Part shown: one piece after another, positions 5,024 through 56,246 of the stretch
Position numbering within the stretch: the stretch's first letter is position 1
Layout of the letters: each line of letters starts with the position of its first letter
Origin: Tetrahymena thermophila SB210
Taxonomy: Eukaryota > Ciliophora > Oligohymenophorea > Hymenostomatida > Tetrahymenidae
DNA length: 64,000 nucleotides
Assembly (NCBI RefSeq): GCF_000189635.1
Contig: NW_002476246.1
Coordinates: forward strand, 620,001-684,000
Direction of reading: 5' to 3'
Made by a program: the position numbers and the translations under genes
The notes under the pieces: generated by a model
What the model was told of the DNA's origin: nothing
Databases searched by the model: none
What the model saw: only the letters and a program-made list of their open reading frames with translations

Positions 5024-8000
5024 ATGATAGATGAGGTGAAATATTAATAGGAACGATAGAGAGATGGTATCGACATTCTAAAATACGTGGATTCGTGGAA
5101 TTTCATAAAATTTAGCAATAATTCTATTTTCGAAGTTGAGATTTCAGATGTTTCTCCATTTATTTAAAATGATCAAGATAAATAATTTTTTAATGAACTA
5201 AATGAAAGAAGTTTATAAATGAATTTGTCTTTAAGTTCTCCTAACTCTAATTAGTAAGAGAAGCAAAATAGCTAAAGCAAAAAACTTATTTTGAAAGAGC
5301 TTTTTGGGTAAGATATTAAATAGGAGATAGAATTTGTCAAGACAATAAGATAGCTTAATTATCGAATACCAGGACTTATTTATATGATAAATTATGCTAT
5401 TTATCAAACAGAATCGTTAGAGGTAGGCTATATTCTCATGGAAAAAGGAGAAATGAATTTGCAGTAGTTTTTAGATGAAAGATTAAAGCAAAACTTGCCT
5501 ATATAATTTAAAGAATTGGTAAGCATAATGAGGTAGAGTATTAGTGCATTGGCTAATTTGCAGGAAGAAAAGATAGCTCACAACGATATAAAATTAGCAA
5601 ATATATTAGTTTTTAGGAAACCTATTGCATAGTTAGCTCAGTAATAAACTAATAAAAATAATGAACAGATGAAGTAAAACAAGAAATAACCATTATTACC
5701 AAATTAATTGTAATTTGATTAAAGTGCAACTTTTTCTCCTAACAAATCAGCCAGGCTTAGCAGTCAAAAAAATAATAAAATAGCTCCAAATAAGTTTCTT
5801 TTTAATGAATATGATAAAAACTAATGTTCTATGTAAGAAGAAAAAGAAGCTAACTAAAATTAAACTAATCAATAGGATAGTTAATGCATAGACTATGAAA
5901 TTGAAATCAAATTTTGCGATATAGGTAGCAGCCAAGCAAATTAAAGCACTTTTAAAAAAACTAAAAAGCCAGGAACCGATTCATATTTAGCCCCAGAAGA
6001 ATTCCTAGGTGATAAAATTCATATTTATAAATACGATGTTTATAGTCTTGGACTTTGTTTTATCAATCTAATAATTCAAAAGACTAGTAACTTTCACGTT
6101 TACATGAAAAATTCAAATTGGAATAATCTTATGAGTAAAAAAGATTGGCTTGAAATACTTCAAGATATTTTAGAAGAGTGGATAAGGATAGCCTCCTTGA
6201 GGATGAATAATTAAGATGTAAAAACTATCTTGACTAAAATGCTTATAATAGATATTAATTCTCGTCCAGATTTTATTGAATTAAGAAATATTTTTGATGA
6301 CTTATTTAAAAATTAAATTTCTAAAGAGCAAATGAGCCCAAACAGCTCATCTTCTCCTAATAATATAGAAGACATATGCATAGAAAATCAATTTGAAATC
6401 AGCAAAAGTAAATATCAAAATATATTTTAAAATGTTTTTTTAAATAAAATCATTAAATAAACTTAAAATTGCTTTGCTAAAAAGCAAAGATATTAAAATT
6501 AAATCTAAAATAAACAAAATATTGCTAGAATAATTGATTAAAAGCATTCTATACAGATAATATAGAGTTATTTTTTATTTTTCAAAATTAAAACAAAAAT
6601 GGTTTTATATTTTTCATTATCTTATTTGTTTTTGGATTAATTTAATTAAAGTTTTAGTATAAAAAAAAATATTTTATTAAATAAATTGATTGATTTAAAT
6701 TATTTTGAATTAAATAGATGACTCTAAAGAAGATAAAAAAAGATCTTAATAAGAACTAAAAAATCAGAGAAATTTTGAAAAACTAGCTTTTTAACAAAGA
6801 AAATTAAAAATTAATGATGGAAAAGCGAAGATGATTCAATTGATATAGAATGGAATATGTGATAATGATTCTCCTTCTTAAGTTACACATCCAAAATAAT
6901 AATTAAGTGGCTTTAATATGAACTCTTCTTAGGAAGAATAAATAATTAAGAATAATTAAATTCCTGCATTAAACTATTTGTAATCGAACGAGTCTTAGCT
7001 CATAGCAAGTATTTCGCCAAAAGAATTGTAAAATAAAGAGTCAGAAGAGTCCCCTTCAACATTTTAAGATAGTATCAATGAAAACCCTAAGCAGCAAATT
7101 GTTCCCACGTCAATTTCTCGTAAGTAATTAACAAACTTCAAAATTCATTAACAATCTACAAAGAGAATTCCAGTAAAAATTACAGATTCAAATTCTATTG
7201 CTTCCTCTAGTTCTGTTTCTTCTTTACCTACTAACATCACTTCTATTTCCTCTACAAATTTGTATAATAGTGAATAAGTCTAATAAAGGAAGAAATCAAA
7301 CACAATTAATGATAAAAAGAAAAATTTAAATAACTAAGCAACGAATTAAAACAATTTAGTAAATTTTGCAGAATCAATATTGATTAGTTCTGATTAAATA
7401 AAGCAGCAATAGCAATAATTCAGATAACCTAGTAGTGATTCAAATAATTTTAATATTTCAAAGCAGTCTACATTAAATGGCATAAATAATCAATAGAGCT
7501 CAGCTTTCTTTTAGAATCTTCATTAAAATTAATAAGTATATTAATAGTTTTCATAGTAGCAATCTTTGTATTTTCAATAACTTTAAATTGACAGCTCAGA
7601 TAAAAAATCAACAAATATTATTACTGCTGATTAGAAATTGAATTTTTCTTAATCGACAAGAAATCAACCGTAAACAGGAACAAAAAAGATTGATTTTACA
7701 ACCAACCTTTCAGTAAGAAATCAACTTATAAGTATGAGCTCAAAAGTTAGTAGAAAAAGTTAGCAAGATGATTTAGAAAACATCAATCACAACAACACAA
7801 ACAAAAACCCTCAAATTTCTTCCTAAAAAAGTTAGCTTGATATACAAAATCCTGCAAGTTTTAGCAATATTCCTAATACTAATTTTAACACTAATCAAAT
7901 AAATTCCTTGACAAACATGTAATTTAAAAATCCATTTAATCAAACCATTAATGGAAAAACAAGCAAATCTTTTAAAGAGCTGCAATCAATTAATTAAATT

Positions 8001-10844
8001 GACTCGCCAACTTAAAATATAAAAAAATCAGTAGATAGAAGATAGAAAAATGTTTCTTCCTCTTAGTTTAAGCTTCCGCCTATTTAAAATCAATAGAATG
8101 AGTAAGATCAAAGCCTAGTTTCCAACTAAGAAAAAAAGTAAATTTGTTTATTTGAAAATAATTTTTTAATTGAATTTAATTCATAAATAAAAAAATCAGC
8201 TAATTAATTTTATTTCATTAATTATTTAATATAATTTATTTATTAAATTAAATAATTGAACAAATTCTTTAGCAAATAAATTATTCTTTAAACTAAATAT
8301 TCTATACTTTTGTTAATTAATTATCAAATTAGAATTTTGTTGTTTAATACTTTTTTAATTTAATTAAATTATTATTTTAAATTTATTGATTTCTTTATCA
8401 TTTTATCAAATTAATTTGCACCTTTTAAAAGGAAAATTTAACTTTTAATTAAGATATTTTATTTTATAAAGTGATTTTGAAGGTATTTAAAAGAGAGAAT
8501 AAGTTAGATTTAACAGCATTTAAGAGAATTTTTCAATTAAATAAGTTTTCGATTCTGATTATTCAAACCCAGCTAGTCCTCATAAATACTCTAAAAGCTA
8601 CACAAACAAAGGAGATTTGACACCTCAACTTAAATAGATGCAAATAACCTCCAGTTAAAAGTCTAAATTCAGTAATTAAAAGTTGATAAAGCCTAATTTA
8701 TCATCTACAAAATTATATCCTTTGCCAGCTTAAAATAATGGAAATCTAACTTCTATAAATACCTCAACAATGCACTTAAAAGTCAGTTTTCCTTCTTAGA
8801 CAACTTAAAAATAACATCAATAACCTTAATAAATGAATATTCTTTAAAATGGGATTTCTAACAATAATTAAAATAATTTCTTATCTGTTAACAATAATTT
8901 AAACTCAAATTTTTAAATCAAGGTATCACAAAAAAGTTTAACTGATTAAGTTAATGAAAACTTTGAATAAGTTACAATCACAGAGTATTCTGAAATGCTA
9001 AAATTTTATGATAATTTTATCAAAGTTAGCGATTCAAACAAAATTTATAAGTATTTAACTCTCATTTTAAGTGGAACAGACAAATCAAATATTCACGGCA
9101 TTATAGATTGCCTCTATAAAATGGATGGTTTAGTCCATTTAAATTTATAAATAATATAATAAAAATCAGAAGTAATTGATTGGGCTTTGGATGTAATTGA
9201 AACAATAGGTTCTTCCCTTATAAATCTATGTATACTTTTTAAAGATTGCGACTATAAAGATCATTTGAAGTCATTATAATCTGACTTTTTAAAACCAGAG
9301 TAACTAACAAAAGTTTCAGAGGATCCTTTTCAGCTGATTGTGAGATTAGAAGGTAAACAAAGTGATCCTCTGGGAATACTTGATTCTTTAATTTCTAAAA
9401 GTTCTTCATTTTAAGACAGAATTGCCATATTTAACATAGACATATAAAAAAAAAATTTAGACAACCCAGCAAAGCTGGTAAATTGTTTAAAGCAAATTTA
9501 AAAATTCAAAAATATACATTCCTTTGGATTAGATATCTCAAATAATAACATTCCTCAAATAGATTCCAACAATATATTCCTAGCTATTGAATAGCTCAAA
9601 AATATTCATACCTTGTCCTTCAACATATCTCAAAATCAACCAAGTTTATTTGATGATACATCTTTGCTTAATTTACCTCATTCGCTGCAAATACTCTATT
9701 TAAACCTTTCATATAATAAGATTTCTACTATTTAATTAGTAAAACTATAAAAGTCTATAGAATCTTGTAAAAGCCTGAACACTATTTATTTGTTTCTAAC
9801 AGGCTGTGTAAACAAAGTAAGTCTTTTATTTACATTTTTCCAAATTTACTTTTTCAATTGCTTAAAAATGCACATAAATGAAAAACAAAAATCTTAGACT
9901 TTTTTAGTTGCCATCTATCATAAAATCTTAGATAAATTTAAGATTAATATTTATAAATAAATAGGATGACACAAATTTGCTTATGCTGTTCTTTCCATTT
10001 TTATTTAAGCAAGTGAAAAAAGTAGGAATATTTTTAGACTCTAATCAGTTATTTGATTAAGAATTCAAGTTATATGAGAGTGAATTACTCAACTAATTCA
10101 AGGTAGAAGTACTCACTTTATCTCTAAATAAAAACATCCTCTCATTCGAGACATTTAAAAGTATTTTAATCAATCTATTTTAGAGAATATTTTAATCTAA
10201 TCAAATAAATATTTTAAATTTAGTTTTATGCAAAATGATCAAAATGCAGTAAAAGCTTAAGCAAGTTACAATCACATTTCCAAGGACTATTCGCAAACAA
10301 TAAATATTAGATTAATTTACTAATTTAGAAAACGAGAAATATATTTTATAACTGAAAAATGAGGAATTCGACTACATAACTATTTAAATAGATATCATCA
10401 AAAGAGCTGTTGCAAGAAAGCAAAGCAACTTATCTGTAAAATTATTATTTATAGAAGAGTATAATATAAATTTAATTATTTATTTATTTGTAAAAGATTC
10501 AAACTGGCAAAAATGCTTCGCTTACATTTATCCCATTAGAAACTATTTCAAATAATTAATGTTGGAATACTTCTAAATAGAGTGTAATATTTTAAGGGTT
10601 TTATTGCTTAACTTGCTATGAAAAAAACCAAGTCAAAAATGATAGCTACTATTGTTTATATTGCATTAAAAATTGCCATAAAGATCATAAATATATAGAA
10701 ATGCATGATTTTCCCTCAGTTTAAATTGTATGCAGCTGCAATGATAAAGGTTAGTTTTGCGAATCCTTAAAACACTTACAAAGTATAAACAATAATTTTT
10801 AAAATAGCATTCAAAACTCTCCTTCAAAATATCCATAAAAATGA
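5024..10844 (+). CDS. protein kinase with LRR-like region and C-terminal UBR-type zinc finger
   Basis: Five exons: 5024-6407, 6718-8137, 8472-9816, 9908-10435, 10497-10844. They total 5025 nt (1674 residues) and every junction keeps phase. The kinase domain covers about residues 95-410: a candidate ATP-binding lysine in LILK, catalytic loop AHNDIKLANIL (H186, D188; HND instead of HRD), CDIG for DFG (D299), and SYLAPEEF for the APE region (P324, E325). The Gly-rich loop is hard to see. Exon 2 and the start of exon 3 encode a long Gln/Asn/Ser-rich, probably disordered linker. Residues about 1200-1500 show irregular leucine-rich repeats (for example LQILYLNLSYNKIS). Exon 5 encodes a Cys/His array (GFYCLTC, YCLYC, NCHKDH, IVCSC) matching the UBR box that binds N-degrons in N-recognins. 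The joining of kinase and UBR parts rests on splice inference; two adjacent genes are possible but no internal start or stop fits better. Confidence 0.75.
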
Positions 10845-11581
10845 TAAATTACTTTCATTATAATAGAAACATAATCAAAAATATATTCAAATTATTGAGT
10901 TTTTCAATAAAAAAAATTAATCAATTAATAAAAAGAATTTAATAAATTTTAAATAAGTAAAATAAATATAAAAAATTTAATATTCAAATAATTTTTGTAA
11001 ATTAATACATTTTACTATATAAAATATATATGTATTTAATTAATTGCTGCTTAAAATAATGAAAAGAGCTTAAAATTGAAAATGGTTTTTTTAAAATACC
11101 TTTGATATTATTATCTAACATAAATTATCTTAAAATCAATTAATTCATTAAAAAATTCATCTTAAAAATATATACATTTTATTTATATTTATCCTTGATA
11201 ACTTGATTATTGGAAGAACTTTGACTAAATTACTTAATTATTAGGATAATTAAAGTATTTTTTGACTTAAATCTTAAAGGATATTTAATTTTATATTAAC
11301 TTCATGTGGTATTTTATTTACAAAAATGAATAAATAGTTTTGTAAATACTTTTGCATATATGAAGAAAAGGAGAAATGGATTAAATAAACAAATGAAACA
11401 TATATGAATAATGAATGAATGATTGTATAAATAAAGTCGTGTGTAGATTGAATATTTTAGAGAAAATTTAAATATCAATATAGATTTAGAAATAACAAAT
11501 AGCTACTTGTAAATTTGAAAAAAACTTAAAACGTTAAGTTTAAATAATTTATATTTATATATGTAAGTAATATTAGGTTCC
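10845..11581. other. convergent 3' spacer
   Basis: Lies between the 3' end of the kinase/UBR gene (plus) and the 3' end of RPS9 (minus), so it holds both 3' untranslated regions. No gene seen. Confidence 0.6.
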
Positions 11582-13606
11582 TCAAGCAGACTTCTTGGCA
11601 TTCTTTCTCTTGGTTCTACCTTCGCGACCACCACCTAAGGGAGAAGTAGAAGCAAAATCGATAGACTTTTCAGAGTCAGTTCTAACCATGAAGGAAGGAA
11701 CATTGACTAAGTTCTTACCAACCCTATTAATAAATTAAATAAATAAATTAATTAACATATTTAACAAATAATGGTAATTAGTTAATTACTTGATGTGTCT
11801 TTGTCTAATAAGGACTCTGGAATGGTGGATAGAGTTAGCCAAATTTAACTTGAAAACTCTGGTTTGGAGTCTTCTTTCCATGAGCTTGTGAATGGTCAAA
11901 CCCAAGACGTAATCCAACTTTCTTTCTTATTCACTGAGGAGACCGTATTTGAACATTCTTCTTAAAAGGGCGGAACCTTCGAATAATCTTCTGGGGTCCT
12001 TGGGGTCTAAGGTGAGCAATTCTCTAGCAGCCTTTCTGAACTTAGCCAAGATCATTTAAACTCTCCAGACTTCTCTCTTGTTCTTTAAACCGAAAGTACC
12101 GATAAGCTTCATTCTAAATAAAAAAAATATTAAAATTAAAATTTAATTTATAAAAATGGGTTTTTTTCTTTCTATTTATCATTCATTATTTATAAATGCT
12201 TATTTTATCAACAAAAATCATTAATCATTTTAGTATTATTTGTGGATTGGTATTTATTTCTTAACAAGTTTAGGACAAGCTATTGTAAGCAAGTAAAGAA
12301 TCATATGAGCTAATTAGTAGTTGACAGGTGTTTAGCGAAATAGGTAGGATATTAACTGATATATTAATCAAACAAAGAATTTATATCATCTAATTATTAA
12401 TAACTATGAATTTGAAAAGAAAGTGATCAGGAATTTTAAAAAGCAGTAGGAACTTAGTTAGAAAATTTATCAAAAAGTACACATTTATTTTGAATTTGGT
12501 TTGTATCAAGAGAGCTTAATTAAAAATTTGTTTGTTTTAATAATTTTAGTTGTTCGTTTATGATGAATATATTTTAATATTTCATACAAACTCTTTTTAA
12601 TTCTTTTATTGCGTCTCTTTGGCTTGATAGATAGCCAATTCTTTTTTTGACAGATCAATAGAGTGAGATTGATTGATCCTTTGACCAAATTGATTAAATG
12701 ATCAATCAATCAATCATAATCATTTTTTCTGCTATATATCAATAAAATATCCTAAATAAACCTTTGGTTTTTAATTAATCTTTAGCATCTTAATTGTTTT
12801 AATACTAATGCTTTGGTTTTTATATTGTTTTGGTTTGCTTATTTAAGATATTTTATACATAATCACTCTATTTTTTTAAGAATTGATTTTAAACAAATTT
12901 TTTTACTGCTTCTCTCTATTGATAGGATATTATTTGCATCCATCCTGCTTTCTAATTTGGTTTTACCTAGATATAGCTTGATTAGTTAGCGAATTAATGC
13001 CTTACTATTTTCATATGGTTTATGGTTTGTTTCTTCTTTTTTTTTCTGATTGATTGATGGCTTATAATTAAGGATATATAATTAATTACTTCCTTAAGCT
13101 GCCATTTATTTACTAATTAATCTACTTCGTTTTTTAACTTGAGGCTATTTATTTATTTTTCTATTGATTCACATTTTCTAATCAATTACTTGCGAGAAAT
13201 ATCATAATGCTAAAACTACAGTAAGAATGGTTCATAATTTTTAGAGAAGCTACTACTTTCTCATTAAATTCAACAAATAATTTGCTTTGGTCCCATGGAT
13301 ATAGGAAATTGTGCTAATAAATCAAATTTCGATAATGGATTGGGATGTTAAATTAAGGGTTTTGTGAAATTTGTGTTGATAAAATAAGAATGAGTAAATA
13401 ATAATTTGATAGATAGATTAATGGATTGGATGAAGTCAGAGTGGATAATTAAATGAATATTGTACTCATTATCGAGTCTTTCCTTTTCATAAGGTCTTCT
13501 GGGGGTAGAGTAGGTCTTGGAAGCTGTTGTGATAAGAGAATAAAGCAATTAATATGGAGATCAATTATTAAAAAAATTATTTACTGTTGATGTAGGTTTT
13601 ACCCAT
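11582..13606 (-). CDS. RPS9: 40S ribosomal protein S9 (uS4)
   Basis: Four exons on the minus strand: 13606-13585, 13523-13466, 12113-11790, 11723-11582. They total 546 nt (181 residues), with all junctions in phase. uS4 is a primary binder of 18S rRNA that organises the 40S body and decoding region. Diagnostic stretches match eukaryotic S9: [91 protein letters not shown] and a basic tail ending [11 protein letters not shown]. The length is slightly below the animal protein because the acidic C-terminal tail is missing, as in other protists. Codons are strongly biased towards C-ending forms, as expected for high expression. The third intron (12114-13465) is 1352 nt, very long for this genome; I found no clear snoRNA in it. 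Confidence 0.96.
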
Positions 13607-16088: not shown

Positions 16089-18537
16089 TTTGATTTTTAT
16101 TTTCTTTTTTATATTTTTTACTTTAATTATTTTGTTTTCTTTTAATTTTAATCTTCCACACCGCTTTTAAGTATCTTAAATACAAATGCATATTCAAACC
16201 ATATACACATACATTTATTTAATTAGACTTCATTAAATTTCCCCTTTATATATTTCTTTTCTTTATACTATTTCTTCTTTTCATTCTAATTTATCTTCAT
16301 TATTTTACTTCCTTTTCTCCTCTCTCAATGCTAAATCTTGACATTTTCATTCATTCATTTATCTTCCTATTTATGTCACCTACTTTCCTTCTATCAATTT
16401 TTCTTTGCTTGCTAGCTAGCTTACCTGCCTACTTTATTCATTTATTTATGTTTCGCATCTTAAATTTGATACTAGCCTATCAATTAAAACAAATAACATT
16501 TCTTATTTTCCCCTTCCATTTCATTATTTTTATAAGCATTTCTTTTTAATTTGCTTTATTTTATAACTACATAAATACATCTTTTAAATTCATTAAAGTA
16601 TTTACATACAAACCTAATACAATTCAGCTTAAAATAAACTGTAACTAGAATAAAATAATTATTTTCAATTTAATTTATAATCAAGTAGAAAATAAAAATA
16701 TTAAAATTTTAATATCCAAAAAAATAGTAATCTACAATTTCAAATTAATAAGCAGTATTTTCATTAAAAATAACAAAAATAATTAAAATATTTATGGCTA
16801 AATAGAATAATTTTATAGTCTAATTATTTAAGAGCTAAAATAATTAGTAATATTCGAAAAGAGTCATTTTATTTTTAAATCGATTCAAAGAGATTAAGTT
16901 GTTTCCTATAAATATAAATCAAGCAAATAATTTAAAATTTAAATTAAAATTAAATCTGTTGAACTCTATAAAATAATTCTTTTTTGAAATAGAAAAATAT
17001 ATTTGTTTGTTTCAATTATTTTAAATTTTTAAAAATAAAAAAATAATTTTAGAATATTAATTCTACAATGTTTTTTATAAAAAATATTGAATATTCAAAG
17101 TTAGTTTTAAACTAGAATTAGTGTTTATTTATAAGTTAATATTTGCCATTAATTGATTGTTTAAAATTTTACCTTTCTCAATTAATCAATAAAATTAGTT
17201 AAGAATTCTTAAAAATTAGAACAACATCTCTTTTTTCCATAAAATTAAACATTCTGAGAATTTCTGTAAATTTATTCTTTTTATTTCTAAAATAATATTT
17301 TTTTATTTTATTGAAGTAGATTTTGACTGCTCATTATTAAAATTTAATCCAAATATATTTTACAAAACAATACAGTTGAAAATTTATTTTTGACTGCTAT
17401 AAATAAATAAAGATGGTAGATCTTTTGAATAATTTAAAATTTTTTAAAAAAAGCCATGGAATAATCTTATTTTGACTTTAAAATGAATGAAATAGAAAAT
17501 TTAAAATTATTGTATACAATATAAATACTGATAATAGCTAATAAAAAATCTTTTTATTTGATAAAGTAGATAATTTAATTTCTATTTTTTTTGCTCTAAT
17601 TATTTTTATCTTTCTCAATTAATCAATAAATACAAATAAAAATCATTTAAAATTCTACCAAAATTTTTATCCTTTAAAATCAAACAGACATTCTAATTAT
17701 TTTTATAAAATTATTCTTTGTATTTCTAAAATAATATTTTTATTAAAATTGTAGTAGATTTTGACTGTTCATTATTTAAATTGAATCCAAATATATTTTA
17801 CAAATCAAAATATTTGAATATTTATTATTCACTTCTATTATAAATAGATGTGGTGGATCTTTTGAATAATTTTAAATTTGAAAAAAAGCTATTGAATAAT
17901 CTTATTTTGACTTTGATATGAATGAAATAGAAATTTAAAATATTTTTTATTAAATGTAAATGCTGATAATAACTAACTAATAAAAATTTTTTTTGATAAA
18001 GTAAATGATTATATTTCTATTTTATTAGTTCTAATTATTTTATCTTTCTCAATTAATCAATAAATACTAATAAAAATCATTTAAAATTAATCCAACATTT
18101 TTTATTATTTAATATTAAATATTCTGATTATTTCTATAAAATTATTCTTTAGAACTTTTAAATTAGTATTTTGTTAAAAGTGAAGTAAGTTTTTAAAGTT
18201 TCTCTTTATTTTAAATGAATCCAAAAATATTAAACAAAACAAATCAGTTTACAATTTTTTATTCACTACAACAAAGATGATGGATCTTGCTTTAAAAAAA
18301 ATGTTTAAGCTTTGAAAAAAGCAATTCAATAAAATTATTTTGACATTTTGAAATAAAACAATTCAAATATTTTAAATTATTCTATTATTTTAAATACCGA
18401 TAATTGCTAATAAAAAATCTTTTTTCTTGATAAATTAGACAATTATTGTTTTTATTATATATTTTTTACCTTTGAAATCACTATTAATGTAACAAATCTT
18501 AAAATAAAAATTTAATAATTTAAATTAAATAAAATCA
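16089..18537. other. spacer between RPS23 and RPS8, partly tandem-repeated
   Basis: A divergent promoter interval of 2.4 kb. The RPS23-proximal 450 nt are T/C-rich on the plus strand. The RPS8-proximal part is occupied by three diverged ~435-bp repeats (17172-18480). No gene seen; the open frame at 16328-16549 is a by-product of the pyrimidine-rich tract. Confidence 0.6.
17172..18480 (+). repeat. three diverged tandem copies of a ~435-bp unit
   Basis: The anchor CTTTCTCAATTAATCAATAA occurs at 17172, 17610 and 18044, spaced 438 and 434 bp. Other shared landmarks follow in order in each copy: a GTAGATTTTGACTG-like block, a GATCTTTTGAATAATTT-like block, an ATTTTGACTTT block with ATGAATGAAATAG, and a GATAATAGCTAATAAAAA-like block. 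The third copy is the most decayed and runs up to the RPS8 5' flank. The unit has no open frame, so this is an old non-coding tandem duplication. Confidence 0.8.
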
Positions 18538-19158
18538 ATGGGTATTTCTCGAGACAGCACTCACAAAAAAAGATCCACAGGAGGTCTTATGCCAGTACAT
18601 AGGAAGAAAAGAGCCTAATAAAAGGGAAGACCACAGTCTATGACTAAATTAACTACAAAATCCAACATTTTAGAGGAGAAAAAGAGAGTTAGATCCATCA
18701 GAGTTAGAGGTGGTGGCATAAAGTAAAGAGCTTTGAGACTTTTTGAAGGTAATTTCTCATGGGGAACTTACAGTATTACAAGAAAGACAAAAATTTTAGA
18801 CGTGAAATATAATGCTACTAATAATGAATTAGTAAAAACAAATACCTTAGTGAAAAACTCAATCGTTGAAATAGACTCAACTCCTTTCAAGGAATGGTTT
18901 AAACTCAAATGTGGTTTAGATATTGGCCCAAAAAAATAAGATCCTGTTACTCATAATAACTCCTCAAATAAGAATGATAGTAAATCAAATGCAAACGAAC
19001 TAACTATTGAAAAGAATATTTTAGAATAGTTTTAACATTAAAGAGTTTTAGCCTGTATTACTTCAAGACCTGGATAAAGTGGTAGAGCAGATGGTTACAT
19101 TCTTGAAGGAAAAGAACTTGAATTCTATATCAAAAAGTTATAATCTAAAAAGAAATGA
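18538..19158 (+). CDS. RPS8: 40S ribosomal protein S8 (eS8), divergent intronless copy
   Basis: One uninterrupted frame of 206 residues from ATG 18538 to TGA 19156-19158. eS8 is a eukaryote-specific surface protein of the 40S body. Family landmarks: [16 protein letters not shown] at the N-terminus, [68 protein letters not shown], and near the C-terminus [20 protein letters not shown]. Oddities are several. An extra 10 or so residues lie near position 50 ([10 protein letters not shown]). The usual basic GRKKG-to-LLEEQF spacer is replaced by an Asn/Ser-rich stretch around residues 134-165. Codon use is unbiased and AT-rich, unlike RPS9 and RPS23 next door. It may be a low-expressed paralogue beside a canonical RPS8 elsewhere in the genome. 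Family certain, status as main copy doubtful. Confidence 0.9.
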
Positions 19159-37444: not shown

Positions 37445-39187
37445 ATTTAGTAAGATATTAGATTTTATATGATAGTTCTATCTTTTATTTAATTTTAATT
37501 ATTAAATATGTATTTAAAAATTCTTTTTAATAGCATTCAGTAGAACTGTATTTCAAATTATGTTTGTTTGTTTGTTTTTATATCTTTTCTATTCTTTCCA
37601 GTTTTTTTATTTTTTTTGATCAGGGATATAGTTTATTTATTGATGCCTATAGGTAATTAGTTAGTTTTCTTCTATATTATTAAAGCAAACAAAACAATAA
37701 ACTTAGATAAAACATACACGTAAAAATATTAAAATAAAATCAATTGTATTACCTAAAATCCATCTGATTAGCTAAGAATTATTAAATTTTCTCTTTTATC
37801 ACCTCTTCAATGTTATTTTTTGTAACCAAAAGAATTTACTTTTTGAGAGATGTTTGAGTGTCTGACTATAAGTAAATAAATAAAAAATTAAACAATATAT
37901 CTTAAATTAAAAAAAAATGGTAATCTAAATATTATACTATGAAAGATACTATTTGTCTATCTTTTATATTTTTTATCTTTGGTTTCTTTAATCCTACAAA
38001 ATGAATAATAGTTAACTTAAAATTAAAAAATAATACCAAAATATATCAAATAAGCTGACTTGCTTCTTGATTCAATAACTTCTATGATATAAATGGACAA
38101 CGAAACTGAAAACTAAAAATAGATAAATAATAATAAAATAAATATACTTTAGGTACTCAATCAATAATTAAGGCCTCCTTTAATTAAGATTAATTTCTGA
38201 TAAAAAAAAATTAAATTTTTTGCTAAAGAAATTGTTTATTTTCTAAAAAGCAAAAATATTTATTTTGGAGTAAATATAAGTTTAGTATTTCTTTATTTAA
38301 CAACTTATATAAAATATTATGTATTTTTACTTCTAAATAGATTGAATAAAAATAAGATAAATTTTTTATTTTACTCCAAATTACTTTTTTTTTGTTTTAT
38401 TAAATTTGATTTTAAATTTTCATTCATCTAAGTTTCGATTTTTTGACATTAAAATTATTTTTTATGAATAAATTTGAAGTATAAAGACATGAAATTATTT
38501 TATTATCTGATTCTAGTTAATCAATCACAAAGAAATTTATGTGAAATTTTAATAAAAAGTTTTAAAATAAATTTAAAATCAGTTGTTTAAATCTAAATGG
38601 AAGATAAAATTTATCAAATTAAAATATCTACTATCAAAATCTATCAGAGTATGTATGTATGTGTGTGTGTGTGTGTGAATATATGAAAATAATATTTTAT
38701 TTAAGGAATCATTTATTAAATCTAAAATACCAACAAATTTTTAGCTGTTTGAGTAATAAAATAATTATTACTGAGCTTATTTATTTATTTATTAGATAGC
38801 TAGTTAGTCATAATAATATTTTGGAAAGTTATTTTTTAATCAACATTATTTAAAATATAATTTGAAAATCTTAAATGTAATCAATTTAATTATCAGTAAT
38901 ATTTTTTAAAAATTGTGAAGAATTAATTAATAAAAAAGAAAAAGACTTAATAATTAATATAGGAAGTAGAATAAAATAAATACTTGTGATATCAATCTTA
39001 TTTTATTTAAAAACACTAGTCTATCTATCTACCAATCCATCTAATTATAATTAATAGTTTTGTAAACTTTTACTGAATGCCATATCTATTATTCGTTTTA
39101 AATTTTTGATATAATCAATTTACAACTATTCTAGTTCATTATTTTGTTTGACTATTCAATTAATCTTCCATCTTATATTACAAAAGC
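37445..39187. other. divergent intergenic region with a GT repeat
   Basis: Contains both promoters for the TMEM151-like gene (minus) and the LRR gene (plus). A (GTAT)n/(GT)n microsatellite lies at 38649-38678. Otherwise A/T-rich with no coding frame I would support. Confidence 0.6.
38649..38678. repeat. (GTAT)n-(GT)n microsatellite
   Basis: A few GTAT units pass into about nine GT units. A simple repeat. Confidence 0.9.
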
Positions 39188-42100
39188 ATGCTTCAAACAA
39201 TTTATTCTTACAATCAGCTTGAAAAGATTACCGCTTAAGCAAACGAGCTTGAAGCATTAATGATAAATTTTATGTATTAATTTTTGTTAGCATTTTTTTG
39301 CATAATCAACTTAATTTATATATTTAATAGAAAATATCCATTGAAAAGCAAGGAGATCTTAACCCTCTCAGAATAAATTACAAAATTTTCTGTGTTGAAG
39401 GAGCTTTACATAAATTTCTAGTAAATTCCCATTTCTATTTTTAATAAAATTAAAAAATATTTTATGACAATTAAGAGAATGTTTAATAGGTTCAGATGGA
39501 GTTCATAGCTTGATGCATTTTTTAAACGGTATGCCTGGTTTAGAAAATATATCAATAAACCTAATGTAAAATATAATACATACAAGCTAATGCAAGACTA
39601 TTTTTGGCAAAATTTAAAAATTCAAATTAATAGGTTCAACAAAATAAGATAAGAAGGAGTTTAGGAATTAGTGTAAGGTCTGAACAAGTGTGAGAATCTA
39701 AGAAAGCTTATGATCAATATCAGGTTTCATATTTATGATTATATTAATAAAGAAAGCAATAAATAATATTTAAATTATTTAAAATTTTAATGATAATATG
39801 AAGCGATAACTAAATTGGGAGTGAAGGTATTAAGATATTCACATCGAATTTTATTCCATGTAGAAAAATAGAAAACCTTTCAATAAATCTAGAGTAAATT
39901 TTATGAATAAATAAGCTTTGGATACAATACATGTATATATAATATAAATAGGAACAACTAAATCTTGTAATCTAATATAAGTGGATTGACAAAAATATTA
40001 AACGGAATAGAGTAATGCTTAAACCTGCAATCTCTCAACCTCAACTTGGCGTAAACTTTCATTAATTATTTTAGATTTATTTATTTATGATTTATTTTTC
40101 AGTAACAATTAGTTAGCAGAAATCGGAGCGCAATCGATTTCTACCACTTTGTAGAACTGCCCAAACCTTATTTCCTTATCACTTAATTTGTGGTAATTTA
40201 GAATTTAATTTTCTTTATTACTTATCAGATATGTAATTAAAAATCAAGAAAAATCTTATCTGAATAACTACCTACTTATCTATCTTAAATAAATAAATAT
40301 TATAATAAGATCATCAAATTGTTTTTCTATGAAAAGGTTTAACAAAATAAAGTCAATAGGTGCTAGACATCTTGCTCAGGGCATTTAGTATTGTTTCAAA
40401 CTTCAAACACTTTTCTTAAATTTAGAGTAATCTTTAGTCAAAAACCATATGAATTAACTATTTAAAAATAATTTAATAATAGATACAATTAGCTTGAAGA
40501 CGAAGGTGTTTTGTAGATATCTGATTCATTTAAAAGTCTTTGTTTTTTAACAAAACTTACTTTACTTTTATGGTAAAAAAATATTTCTTACAAAAATAAA
40601 AAATATTTATTATTAATAATTCTAATAATAAAGACACATTAATATTTTAAATTCAAATAAACTTGAATAAAATTTGTTAATTTATTGATTGTGTTTTAAT
40701 GACTATTTATTGCATATTATAAAAAGGGGTAATTAAATTAAATTCAATGGAATTTCTGTTTTGTCATAGGCGATTTCTAAACTGAAAATACTTAAAAGCC
40801 TCAATCTTGGATTTGAGTAATTTATTTTTATTTTTTTGTTTAACTAAATAAATTTTTTATTAGAGAAAATGAAATTTGTAGAGAAGGTTCAAAACAACTG
40901 TCTTAAGCAATCAAAAAAAACACAGAATTACAATTTCTTTAGCTCAACTTTTGGTAAATTTTAATCTAAAATTCTCATCTTATTAATTATTTGTTATTTT
41001 TTTTATTAGTTTTTAAAAATTTTGCTATCAGTTAGTTATATTTATTCATCATTTTTTATATTTATCTAATTATTAATTTGCTGTATTTAGTATATTTATT
41101 TAAATTATTTCATTCAAAAATGAACTTTTTTCTAGTTATTTAAGATAATTTAAAAAGAATATTCAAGCTAATTTAATGTCTTTTATTTTTAATTTATAGG
41201 TTTAGCACTTTTGATGAGTACAGCTGCCAAGAAATTTCAAAGGGTTTTAAATATTGCTAAAATTTAGTTAGTATTTGCATCAGCTTAAAGTAAAAATAAA
41301 AATATCCTAAGAAATGAATTAGTAAATTTGTTAAAGTAATAATAAGATTAGATAAGAAGGAGTTAAATCTATTGTTGATGGATTAATTGAATGCAAATCT
41401 TTGGATTAGCTGAATTTAAATATAGAGTATAAATTATTTTTATTAATAATAAATTATTTATTTTTTAATCATCTTAGAGGCAATGGAGTAGGAGTTGAAG
41501 GTGTTCTAGAACTTTTAAGGTTATTTTAAAATTTATATAGCCTTAGAGATGTTTGCTTGAATTTAGGGTAACTTTAATCATTCAAATTACTTTTATAATA
41601 ATCAAGCTTATTAACTGAATTAATTAGATTAAACTAAATTGGAGAGTAAGGATGCGCTGTTTTAAGTGAAGCTCTTTAACACTTAAAGTATTTAAAAAAA
41701 TTACAGCTAAAATTATAGTAAAATCATTTTTTTTTAATTACCACCAAACAAGTTAATTATTTTAAGCTTTAATGAAAAAAAAATAAATTTACCTTAAATA
41801 TCAAAAAAAAAAATTAATTCATTTGAAAAATAATTTAAATTCAAAGAAATGTTTTATAAAAAATAGGGGAAATTCAATAAAAGAGACAGGAGTGAAAATA
41901 ATTTAGTTAGGGATTAACAATTTAGAAACTATTTCAATACTAAATTTAAATCTATAGTAATTAATATTTCAGTATTTAAAAACATATTTATTTACTCTTG
42001 TTAGTAATAATGAAATAGGATGTAAAGGGGTTTACAATTTTTGTTAAGGTTTGAAATACAATAATAAGTTAAAATAGCTAAATATAGATCTGAGGTATTT

Positions 42101-42275
42101 AATTACTTACTTACTTGATAAAATTTAATTATTCATAATTAATTCTATTAAATAAAAAATAAAAATATTTTATTTTTATTTAAGGTGGAATTAAATCAGT
42201 TCAGAGTATATCACAAAGGTAAAGCATGTGTTGCGCAAGATAAAAAGATTGGTTATCCTATAGTCATATATTTGA
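39188..42275 (+). CDS. leucine-rich repeat protein built from one-repeat exons
   Basis: Eighteen exons give 1626 nt (541 residues): 39188-39273, 39331-39420, 39476-39565, 39634-39723, 39804-39893, 39952-40050, 40103-40192, 40337-40426, 40483-40572, 40727-40816, 40864-40953, 41200-41289, 41337-41426, 41478-41567, 41628-41717, 41867-41956, 42005-42094, 42185-42275. All internal exons are exactly 90 nt except one of 99 nt, and all 17 introns are phase 2, so each exon encodes one 30-residue LRR (33 in the longer one). The consensus starts after the junction as E-N-x-I-x-x-x-G, then L-x-x-x-L-x-x-C-x-N-L-x-x-L-x-L-N-L, like the RNase-inhibitor/RanGAP class. Examples: IGARHLAQGIQYCFKLQTL, QLAEIGAQSISTTLQNCPNL, IGEQGCAVLSEALQHLKYL. 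No signal peptide, kinase or other domain is seen. Some acceptors (AAG) were chosen because they restore phase. Probably a protein-binding solenoid; partner unknown. Confidence 0.88.
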
Positions 42276-45724: not shown

Positions 45725-47098
45725 ATGAATAAACAAATCATTGCTCTCTTTATGATTGCTACTTTTGCAATCGCTTAAACTCCTGGTGCTAGAATCCACT
45801 TAACTGCTGGTTTCATGAACAAGGCTAAGGACTGGGCTTTACCCACTCTCATCCCCGGTGGTAAGTTAGACCTTAACGCTCCTGACACTGATGCTTCTGG
45901 TTTCCACTTATCAAATATGCACGGTGAATTAGAAATCCCTCCTGAGACTATCTCTTTCTCTATCACTGAAAATAACTTCGAACTCTCCATTAATGACATG
46001 CACGTTTCTTTCCATTTCGAAGCTAAGTTAAACAAGTTCATTAAGGGTTCTGCTTCCCCCTCTGGTACCTTCTCCACTGATGTTACTGTTAGTTTCGGTA
46101 TCAACGGTGCCGGTCAATTATAAGTTGCCTCTTTCGGTATCCACAACTTCAGAATCGGTCACACCACCGTCGATTTACCCGGATTCGTTAAGGCCATCCT
46201 CAACTTCTTCATTGATCTCCTCTCTAGAATCGTTCAAGGCAAACTTAACGATATGGCCCCTGGTATCTAAAACTAAATTAACGCTATGTTGACTAAGTCT
46301 CCCACTGAAACTGGTTTCGGTAACTTACCCATCGGTTTGGACCTCACCTTCAGCAATGCCATCCAACTTACTTCTGGACAAATGATTGTTGCTTTGAATC
46401 TCTTTGCTTACAACAACCAAAAGCCCAAGGTTAGACCCCCCTTCGAAAACCCCACCCCCTTCCCTGCTGGTCCCGCTGCTCAAGACTTCACTTTCTTCTT
46501 AAGTGAATACACCCTTAACTCCATGTCTTTCGCTGCTTTCGACACTGGTATGATGGCCAAGGACTTCGGTATCGATATCCTCTAAAAGCTCTCCTCTGTT
46601 GAATAACTTAATGGTATGCTCGGTGGTATTGAAGATGTCCTCAAGAGTGCTACCGTTACCGTTAAGGTTCATGCTGGTAACTACCCCTAATTCAACATTG
46701 CTGGTGGTGTCTTCTCCCTCGCTACTGACTTAGTTGCTGAATTGGTTGCTACCTATGCTGACAAGACTATCCCCATCCTTGGATTAAACATTGCTACCAA
46801 CTTTGGTGTCTCTGCTTCCGTTGTCAACAACTCCTTCCTCGGTTTCCACATTGACCACGCTCAATTGACCAAGTTCGACGTTACCCTCTCTACCTTCAAG
46901 ACCATTAACTTAGAATAAGTCACCACTTTAATCAACAACGTTTTGGCTTTCTTCTTACCTGAAATTAACGAAAAGTTCTGCAACGGTCAAATCCCCATGA
47001 ACGGTGCTAACTTCGTCCTTAGCGGTGCTGCCCTCGAATTAGTCGACCACCACATCATGGTCCAAGCTACCCCCTAATTCGGTAACTTCGCCCTCTGA
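45725..47098 (+). CDS. secreted BPI/LBP-like lipid-binding protein, copy 1
   Basis: An intronless frame of 457 residues from ATG 45725 to TGA 47096-47098. A clear signal peptide (MNKQIIALFMIATFAIA) precedes a long beta-rich protein with the alternating hydrophobic pattern and length of the BPI/LBP/CETP tubular lipid-binding family. Family-like features are a GFMNKAKDWALP start, amphipathic strands such as ISFSITENNFELSINDMHVS, a central Pro-rich linker (VRPPFENPTPFPAGPAA) between the two barrel halves, and a second half repeating the strand pattern. Only one cysteine (FCNG) is present, so the disulfide of animal BPI is absent. The codons are strongly biased towards C-ending forms, suggesting abundant expression. 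The gene is duplicated at 54873-56246, including leader and 3' flank. Likely an extracellular or vesicular lipid or endotoxin binder; the ligand is not visible in the sequence. Confidence 0.82.
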
Positions 47099-54872: not shown

Positions 54873-56246
54873 ATGAACAAACAAATCATTGCTCTCTTTA
54901 TGATTGCTACTTTTGCAATCGCTTAAGCTCCTGGTGCTAGAATCCACTTAACTGCTGGTTTCATGAACAAGGCTAAGGACTGGGCTTTACCTACCGTTCT
55001 CCCCGGTGGTAACTTAGATATTGCTATCCCTGATCAAGATGCTTCTGGCTTCCACTTATCTAATATGAATGGTTAATTAAGTATCCCCCCCGAGACTATT
55101 ACTTTCTCCATCACTGAAAATAACTTCCAACTCTCTATCAATGATATGCATCTTTCCTTCCACTTTGATGCTAAGTTGAACAAGTTTGTTAAGGGTTCTG
55201 CTTCTCCCTCTGGTACCTTCTCCACTGATATTAATGTCAGCTTCGGTATCAACGGTGCTGGTCAATTATAAATTGCTGGTTTCGGTATCAATAACTTCAG
55301 AATCGGTCACACCACCGTCGATTTACCCGGATTCGTCAAGGGTATCCTCAACTTCTTCATTGATCTCCTCTCCAGATTCATCCAAAGCAAGCTTAACGAT
55401 GTTGCCCCCGGTATCAGAGATTAAGTTAATGCTATGTTGACCAGATCTCCCACTGAATCTGGTTTCGGTAGCTTACCCATCGGTTTAGACCTCACTTTCA
55501 GCAATGCTATTGAACTCACCTCCGGTTAAATGATCGTTGCTACTAACCTTTATGCTTACAACAATCAAAAGCCCAAGGTTAGACCCCCCTTCGAAAACCC
55601 CACCCCCTTCCCTGCTGGTCCCGCTGCTCAAGACTTCACTTTCTTCTTAAGTGAATACACCCTTAATTCCATGTCTTTCGCTGCTTTCGACACTGGTATG
55701 ATGGCCAAGGACTTCGGTATCGATATCCTCTAATAACTTTCCTCTGTTGACCAACTCAATGGTATGCTCGATGGTCTCGCTGATGTCCTCTCAAGTGCTA
55801 CCGTTACCGTTAAGGTTCATGCTGCTAACTACCCCTAATTCAACATTGCTGGTGGTGTCTTCTCCCTCGCTACTGACTTAGTTGCTGAATTGGTTGCTAC
55901 TTATGCTGACAAGACTATTCCCATCCTTGGATTAAACATTGCTTCTAACTTTGGTGTCTCTGCTTCCGTTGTCAACAACTCTTTCCTCGGTTTCCACATT
56001 GATCACGCTCAATTGACCAAGTTCGACGTTACCCTCTCTACCTTGAAGACTGTCAACTTAGAATAAGTCACTACTTTAATCAACAACGTTTTGGCTTACT
56101 TCTTACCTGAAATTAACGAAAAGTACTGCAACGGTCAAATCCCCATGAACGGTGCTAACTTCGTCCTTAGCGGTGCTGCCCTCGAATTAGTCGACCACCA
56201 CATCATGGTCCAAGCTACCCCCTAATTCGGTAACTTCGCCCTCTGA
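54873..56246 (+). CDS. secreted BPI/LBP-like lipid-binding protein, copy 2
   Basis: An intronless frame of 457 residues, the same length as copy 1 at 45725-47098, from ATG 54873 to TGA 56244-56246. The signal peptide is identical (MNKQIIALFMIATFAIA). Roughly 50 residues differ between the copies, most of them before residue ~245 (for example LIPGGKLDLNAP versus VLPGGNLDIAIP). The central Pro-rich linker and the second half are nearly identical at DNA level, including most silent sites. That mosaic points to gene conversion of the 3' two-thirds. Strong codon bias suggests high expression. A single cysteine (YCNG) again means no internal disulfide. The same lipid-binding role as copy 1 is inferred; the divergent first barrel may tune ligand specificity. 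Confidence 0.82.

Follow-up and report, generated by a model that had tools for sequence, protein, structure and literature searches.

Exon-intron anatomy of the LRR gene

The locus at 39188..42275 of the window, by which we mean the whole 64-kb stretch of Tetrahymena thermophila SB210 DNA that was analyzed, raises a question. Does a tandem run of equal-sized exons, each encoding one leucine-rich repeat (LRR) period, represent a real gene, and does its regularity record ongoing amplification or present use in splicing? When the gene was rebuilt from the sequence under the ciliate code, the + strand yielded a predicted coding sequence of 18 exons and 541 codons, running from an ATG at 39188 to a TGA ending at 42275. 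In order, the exons comprise one of 86 nt, four of 90 nt, one of 99 nt, eleven of 90 nt, and one of 91 nt, so that a length of exactly 90 nt is found in 15/18 exons, as runs of 4 and 11. All 17 introns in the model are GT-AG, interrupt the frame in phase 2, and measure between 47 and 246 nt. This model agrees with the sequence-only reading, which had counted 18 exons (15 of 90 nt and one of 99 nt) and 17 phase-2 introns.

The exons were compared with a family profile built on exon pieces of 29 aa, 116 in number and drawn from 25 other loci; these loci were found with exon 13 as the query, and the profile is thus not fully independent of the gene. Exon 1 (86 nt; 39188..39273, as all following exons on the + strand) supplies the ATG start and the N-terminal region, in which a first LxxL-like segment occurs. 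Exon 2 (90 nt; 39331..39420) holds one LRR period and is matched weakly by the family profile (E 0.11), and exon 3 (90 nt; 39476..39565) is placed by the gene model and missed by the profile. Gene model and profile together support exons 4 (90 nt; 39634..39723), 5 (90 nt; 39804..39893), 6 (99 nt, three codons extra; 39952..40050), 7 (90 nt; 40103..40192), 8 (90 nt; 40337..40426), 9 (90 nt; 40483..40572), 10 (90 nt; 40727..40816), and 11 (90 nt; 40864..40953). Exon 12 (90 nt; 41200..41289) is a weak repeat (E 0.14), and exon 13 (90 nt; 41337..41426), the query for the genome search, is again supported by both. Exon 14 (90 nt; 41478..41567) comes from the gene model and is not detected by the profile, whereas exons 15 (90 nt; 41628..41717), 16 (90 nt; 41867..41956), and 17 (90 nt; 42005..42094) are found by both. 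Exon 18 (91 nt; 42185..42275), from the gene model, carries a partial last repeat and the TGA stop. The introns occupy the span 39274..42184 (+), and their lengths from 5' to 3' are 57, 55, 68, 80, 58, 52, 144, 56, 154, 47, 246, 47, 51, 60, 149, 48, and 90 nt.

At the 5' end, a stop codon lying shortly before 39152 closes the frame of exon 1. No LRR-like exon was found upstream by two profile scans of the open reading frames (ORFs) between 36.1 and 39.3 kb, where the sole match was partial (37856, E 0.43), and the ATG at 39188 was therefore retained as the start. An acceptor-like AG at 39185-39186 leaves a small doubt about that choice.

Within the gene, the family profile matched 14 stretches at E values up to 2, 10 of them with E<0.01. 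Exact AG and GT dinucleotides stood at the 90-nt borders of 13/14 stretches, and the fourteenth was the 99-nt exon. Elsewhere in the window the profile matched 12 stretches (best E 0.018), with both borders present in 0/12, and 20 first-order random 64-kb control sequences gave 1 match at E<0.01 in total. A second profile, which is circular in that it was made from the same 15 exons of this gene that it finds, recovered those exons at E values of 1e-12 to 1e-7 and nothing below 0.08 in the rest of the window. At the level of sequence, these results confirm the tandem array of equal-sized exons, with one predicted LRR period each, and the locus looks like a real gene.

Repeat unit, protein, and relatives in the genome

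The exon consensus of the LRR gene, xNxIxxxGxxxLxxxxxxxxxLxxLxLNL, belongs to what we take to be the RI-like repeat class. The intron lies between the strand residues LxLNL, which it follows directly, and the loop Asn. It had been claimed that exon and repeat are the same unit, and this holds in that one exon spans one period; the border nevertheless cuts the conventional LRR motif, at least under the boundary convention that we assume here, so that the motif straddles two exons. The conserved leucine codons of 90-bp exons are reported at positions 36, 48, 66, 75, 81, and 87 (PMC6564038). In the LRR gene, each of these positions is hydrophobic (LIVFMC) in 15/15 exons, and leucine itself occupies them in 8, 6, 13, 12, 9, and 10 of the 15 exons, respectively.

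Pfam matched the 541-aa product to LRR_6 only (whole-protein score 32.3 bits, cut-off 23.4), with no single repeat above that cut-off on its own and no other Pfam domain. The product also has no strongly hydrophobic stretch, the hydropathy maximum being 1.02 over 19 residues. Since both a strongly hydrophobic stretch and a further Pfam domain are missing, the protein is most likely a cytosolic, RI-like LRR solenoid that binds other proteins. Thirteen distinct PDB sequences match it, and the names among them include DRC5, leucine-rich repeat protein, Ran GTPase-activating protein 1, and NLRP2. From the repeat pattern we infer a strand-loop-helix fold, in which each exon would contribute the Asn-loop, the helix, and the following beta-strand to an LRR solenoid like that of ribonuclease inhibitor, with the introns at the same point after every strand. 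That Tetrahymena LRR proteins recognize bacteria or their digestion products is offered as a hypothesis only in PMC6564038.

The best homologue of the predicted protein is TTHERM_01243420 of T. thermophila SB210 (27% identity over 93%). On contig C358 of the same genome, 718/758 of its residues map residue-exact; the mapping stops 40 residues short of the protein's end, 70 nt before the fetched stretch runs out. The 15 mapped introns are all in phase 2, and 11/14 internal exons measure 90 nt (the rest 93, 93, and 120 nt), with the end of the 16th piece not being a mapped border. Because TTHERM_01243420 was annotated by others, it backs the splice pattern of 90-nt, phase-2 exons, and its mapping bears out the earlier claim of a ciliate gene, here from T. 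thermophila. No near-identical annotated protein was found for the LRR gene itself among proteins of 0.55 to 1.75 times the query length, and the gene may be absent from public annotation or modelled differently there.

The same unit was sought in the rest of the genome by searches that scored the best candidates only (for LRR_6, the best 150 of 280), so that the locus numbers are no census; matches with a border beyond the end of a locus were left out of the border counts. Among the 27 non-self loci from the exon-13 search, AG and GT stood at the exact 90-nt borders of 116/123 profile matches (E<0.01), and 25/27 loci had such borders. For all fetched non-self loci together, exact 90-nt borders were found in 119/222 matches, and when the borders were slid by 1 to 7 nt the count fell to 0-1/222. 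A long query, which favors uninterrupted genes, gave 27 loci with 90-nt borders in 3/99 profile matches. LRR loci on other contigs of this genome (L009-L038) matched unbroken over several repeats. One-exon-per-repeat and nearly uninterrupted LRR genes thus both seem to be present in T. thermophila.

Other genes lie in the same window. A stretch at 5024-11000 (+) begins with a protein kinase ORF (Pkinase, E 6.5e-17), continues with ORFs containing LRR-like text, and is possibly one or more kinase-LRR genes; it includes an LRR-like stretch at 9540 without 90-nt AG/GT borders and a Cys-rich stretch that no Pfam entry matches (10359-10841, +). The ORF at 11582-12112 (-) presumably encodes ribosomal protein uS4 or something like it. 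An eS8-like ribosomal protein ORF at 18538-19158 (+), inside the ORF 18487-19158, has many differences from its best match, eS8 of 4bts, a ribosome structure that we assume to be from T. thermophila; judged by its sequence, it probably represents a second, diverged copy. Encoded at 45725-47098 and about 54873-56246 (+) are two proteins that resemble each other, share a putative signal sequence, and carry LBP/BPI/CETP C-terminal domains. Both loci fall in the 2-kb bins with the highest G+C content in the window (0.32 and 0.35, with neighbors at 0.21-0.23). The BPI-like window protein is 97% identical to its T. malaccensis match, and the T. malaccensis protein P0006 has a best match of 36% in the T. 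thermophila genome. As species markers the eS8-like and BPI-like proteins were misleading, and TTHERM_01243420 decided the matter; a telomerase RNA also looked like the T. thermophila one.

Subgroup and history of the exon array

Tetrahymena LRR genes with 90-bp exons have been reported in full as a phenomenon by Xiong et al. (2019; PMC6564038), the one paper that a library search on them returned; a passage search found neither LRR nor leucine mentioned in the body of a study of T. thermophila strains (PMC10868616). Of the 1,874 LRR genes that PMC6564038 counts in T. thermophila, 1,500 contain one or more 90-bp exons (group II, 566; group III, 934), and more than 98% of the introns preceding such exons are in phase 2. 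RNA-seq support for the arrays is cited in the legend of its figure S8. Group II genes have introns of about 56 nt, the genome background, and no nucleotide repeats, whereas group III genes have introns of about 257 nt and retain nucleotide similarity between units. The origin proposed there is massive exon shuffling via unequal crossing over, perhaps with the participation of a non-LTR retrotransposon, and the clonal expansion of the 90-bp exon is dated before the last common ancestor of ten Tetrahymena species.

The LRR gene shares with this class the species, the arrays of 90-bp exons, the phase-2 introns, the leucine positions, and introns near 56 nt, and no nucleotide repeats were found in it; against the description in PMC6564038, nothing of substance differs, one exon of 99 nt apart. 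The median intron is 58 nt, with 13/17 introns at or below 90 nt and four of 144 to 246 nt. Between its 15 exons, the mean nucleotide identity is 44% (30% when shuffled) and the mean amino acid identity 27%. A genome DNA search returned the gene itself and 7 short stretches covering 39 to 144 nt of the query; the search passes over simple repeats and high-frequency words, and by its own account lack of a match is no proof of rarity. No tandem repeat of exon-unit size was found in 37.4-44 kb. The comparison with group III gives the same exon size, phase, and repeat, but the nucleotide similarity between units and the introns of about 257 nt that mark those genes (PMC6564038) are both missing, a single intron of 17 reaching 246 nt. 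A young form does exist among the fetched loci: in three of them (L054, L055, and L057) the exons are 75 to 91% alike, and 12/15 gaps between found exons measure 240 to 370 nt. The median intron of 58 nt and the lack of a close DNA copy in the search lead to a strong inference that the LRR gene is of the older, group II type, an assignment made from introns and DNA search.

Does this gene, taken alone, record its own growth? Amino acid identity was 26.8% among its own exons and 28.9% between its exons and those of other genes. The nearest relative lay in the same gene for 3/15 exons (ties not counted), against 1.6 expected with random labels, and a permutation test of neighboring exons among the 15 detected no adjacency signal. 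With neither a within-gene excess of similarity nor adjacency, this gene by itself does not demonstrate tandem amplification. The claim of exon-wise tandem amplification therefore stands for the ultimate origin, on the family evidence published in PMC6564038, and is not supported for growth within the gene, whose sequence suggests that it survives, diverged, from an old expansion; it makes no clear example of amplification still under way.

A two-exon unit was considered for exons 8 to 13, prompted by introns that are long and short by turns (144, 56, 154, 47, 246, and 47 nt) and by alternating W/E junction codons. It was rejected, in that even-lag exons were not closer in protein (BLOSUM mean of 24.7 versus 27.2; the split ranked 7th of 10) and only slightly closer in DNA (44.1 versus 42.6%). 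Among the introns, 0/11 pairs tested aligned above shuffles, and the shuffle test led us to regard the intron-intron BLAST matches as AT-rich noise.

We therefore assign a probability of about 0.92 to the reading in which the locus is a T. thermophila macronuclear protein-coding gene that belongs to the 90-bp-exon LRR class as one of its older, group II type genes. Its array would derive from clonal expansion of a 90-bp exon followed by divergence, perhaps with exchange with other LRR genes.

Exon skipping, coding status, and meaning of the array

One alternative is that the array is in present use, with exon skipping or recombination generating variable LRR binding surfaces. The earlier claim that exons can be lost without damage to the frame was largely upheld: skipping keeps the frame because all introns (17/17) are in phase 2, and 144/153 forward exon joins leave an open junction codon. 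The remaining 9/153 joins make TGA, including those produced by skipping exon 8 or exon 10 (2/16 single-exon skips). These stops arise because exons 7, 9, and 11 end in TG, while exons 9, 11, 14, and 15, downstream of exon 7, begin with A. Comparable splicing of LRR exons is reported elsewhere. Brown algal ROCO genes also encode one LRR per exon in phase 2, for which exon shuffling is the supposed origin, and show alternative splicing of these exons, although the exons are 72 bp, the repeat consensus is 23 aa, and ROC-COR is attached (PMC11378527). In human NLR genes the LRRs are of RI type, the exon borders sit at one fixed point of the repeat, and the exons are mostly frame-preserving; skipping of exon 5 has been shown for NLRP3, whose exons differ in being 171 bp long with two LRRs each (PMC6642158). 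The LRR gene, however, shows no signal of within-gene exon similarity or adjacency, and neither of the strings "alternative splic" and "skipp" appears in the body of PMC6564038. The splicing idea appears reasonable in kind and unsupported here, and we regard present use as very unlikely. Its more elaborate form, in which single LRR exons would be skipped or swapped over life stages or somatic growth to give one cell a cytosolic recognition repertoire, with the TGA joins serving as off-switches, strikes us as highly improbable.

Next in standing, and similarly hard to credit, is an untranslated, decaying pseudogene of the 90-bp-exon family. Its weak repeats would suit such a gene (exons 3 and 14 missed and exon 12 at E 0.14 with the family profile), as would the lack of an identical annotated protein in the length range searched. 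The coding frame argues otherwise. The spliced frame holds TGA at its end only, with 0 internal TGA in 541 codons where 11.5 are expected from composition, and the other five frames contain 5 to 15 each. In addition, 34/34 splice-site dinucleotides are intact, and every 90-nt exon retains hydrophobic residues at all six positions.

Least probable of all is that the spacers are partly coding in an LRR gene of few introns, with the 90-nt exons illusory, since the 7/17 introns that are open and a multiple of three in length, together with the unbroken LRR loci elsewhere in the genome, are set against a retention that shifts the frame or meets TGA in 10/17 introns, a GC content of 0.23-0.37 in exons and 0.08-0.21 in introns without overlap, and the same exon size and phase in TTHERM_01243420.

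The LRR gene is thus an ordinary older member of a large, published Tetrahymena class, and the phenomenon it displays is already known. What the analysis adds is one instance of the published exon-equals-repeat class, confirmed from raw sequence and from the annotation of a homologue. Its equal-phase architecture would be a relic of family growth and not a demonstrated splicing device. The gene also serves as a warning that exon lengths alone are no basis for reading recent amplification, for in this old member the form of the amplification has been kept and its sequence trace is gone.
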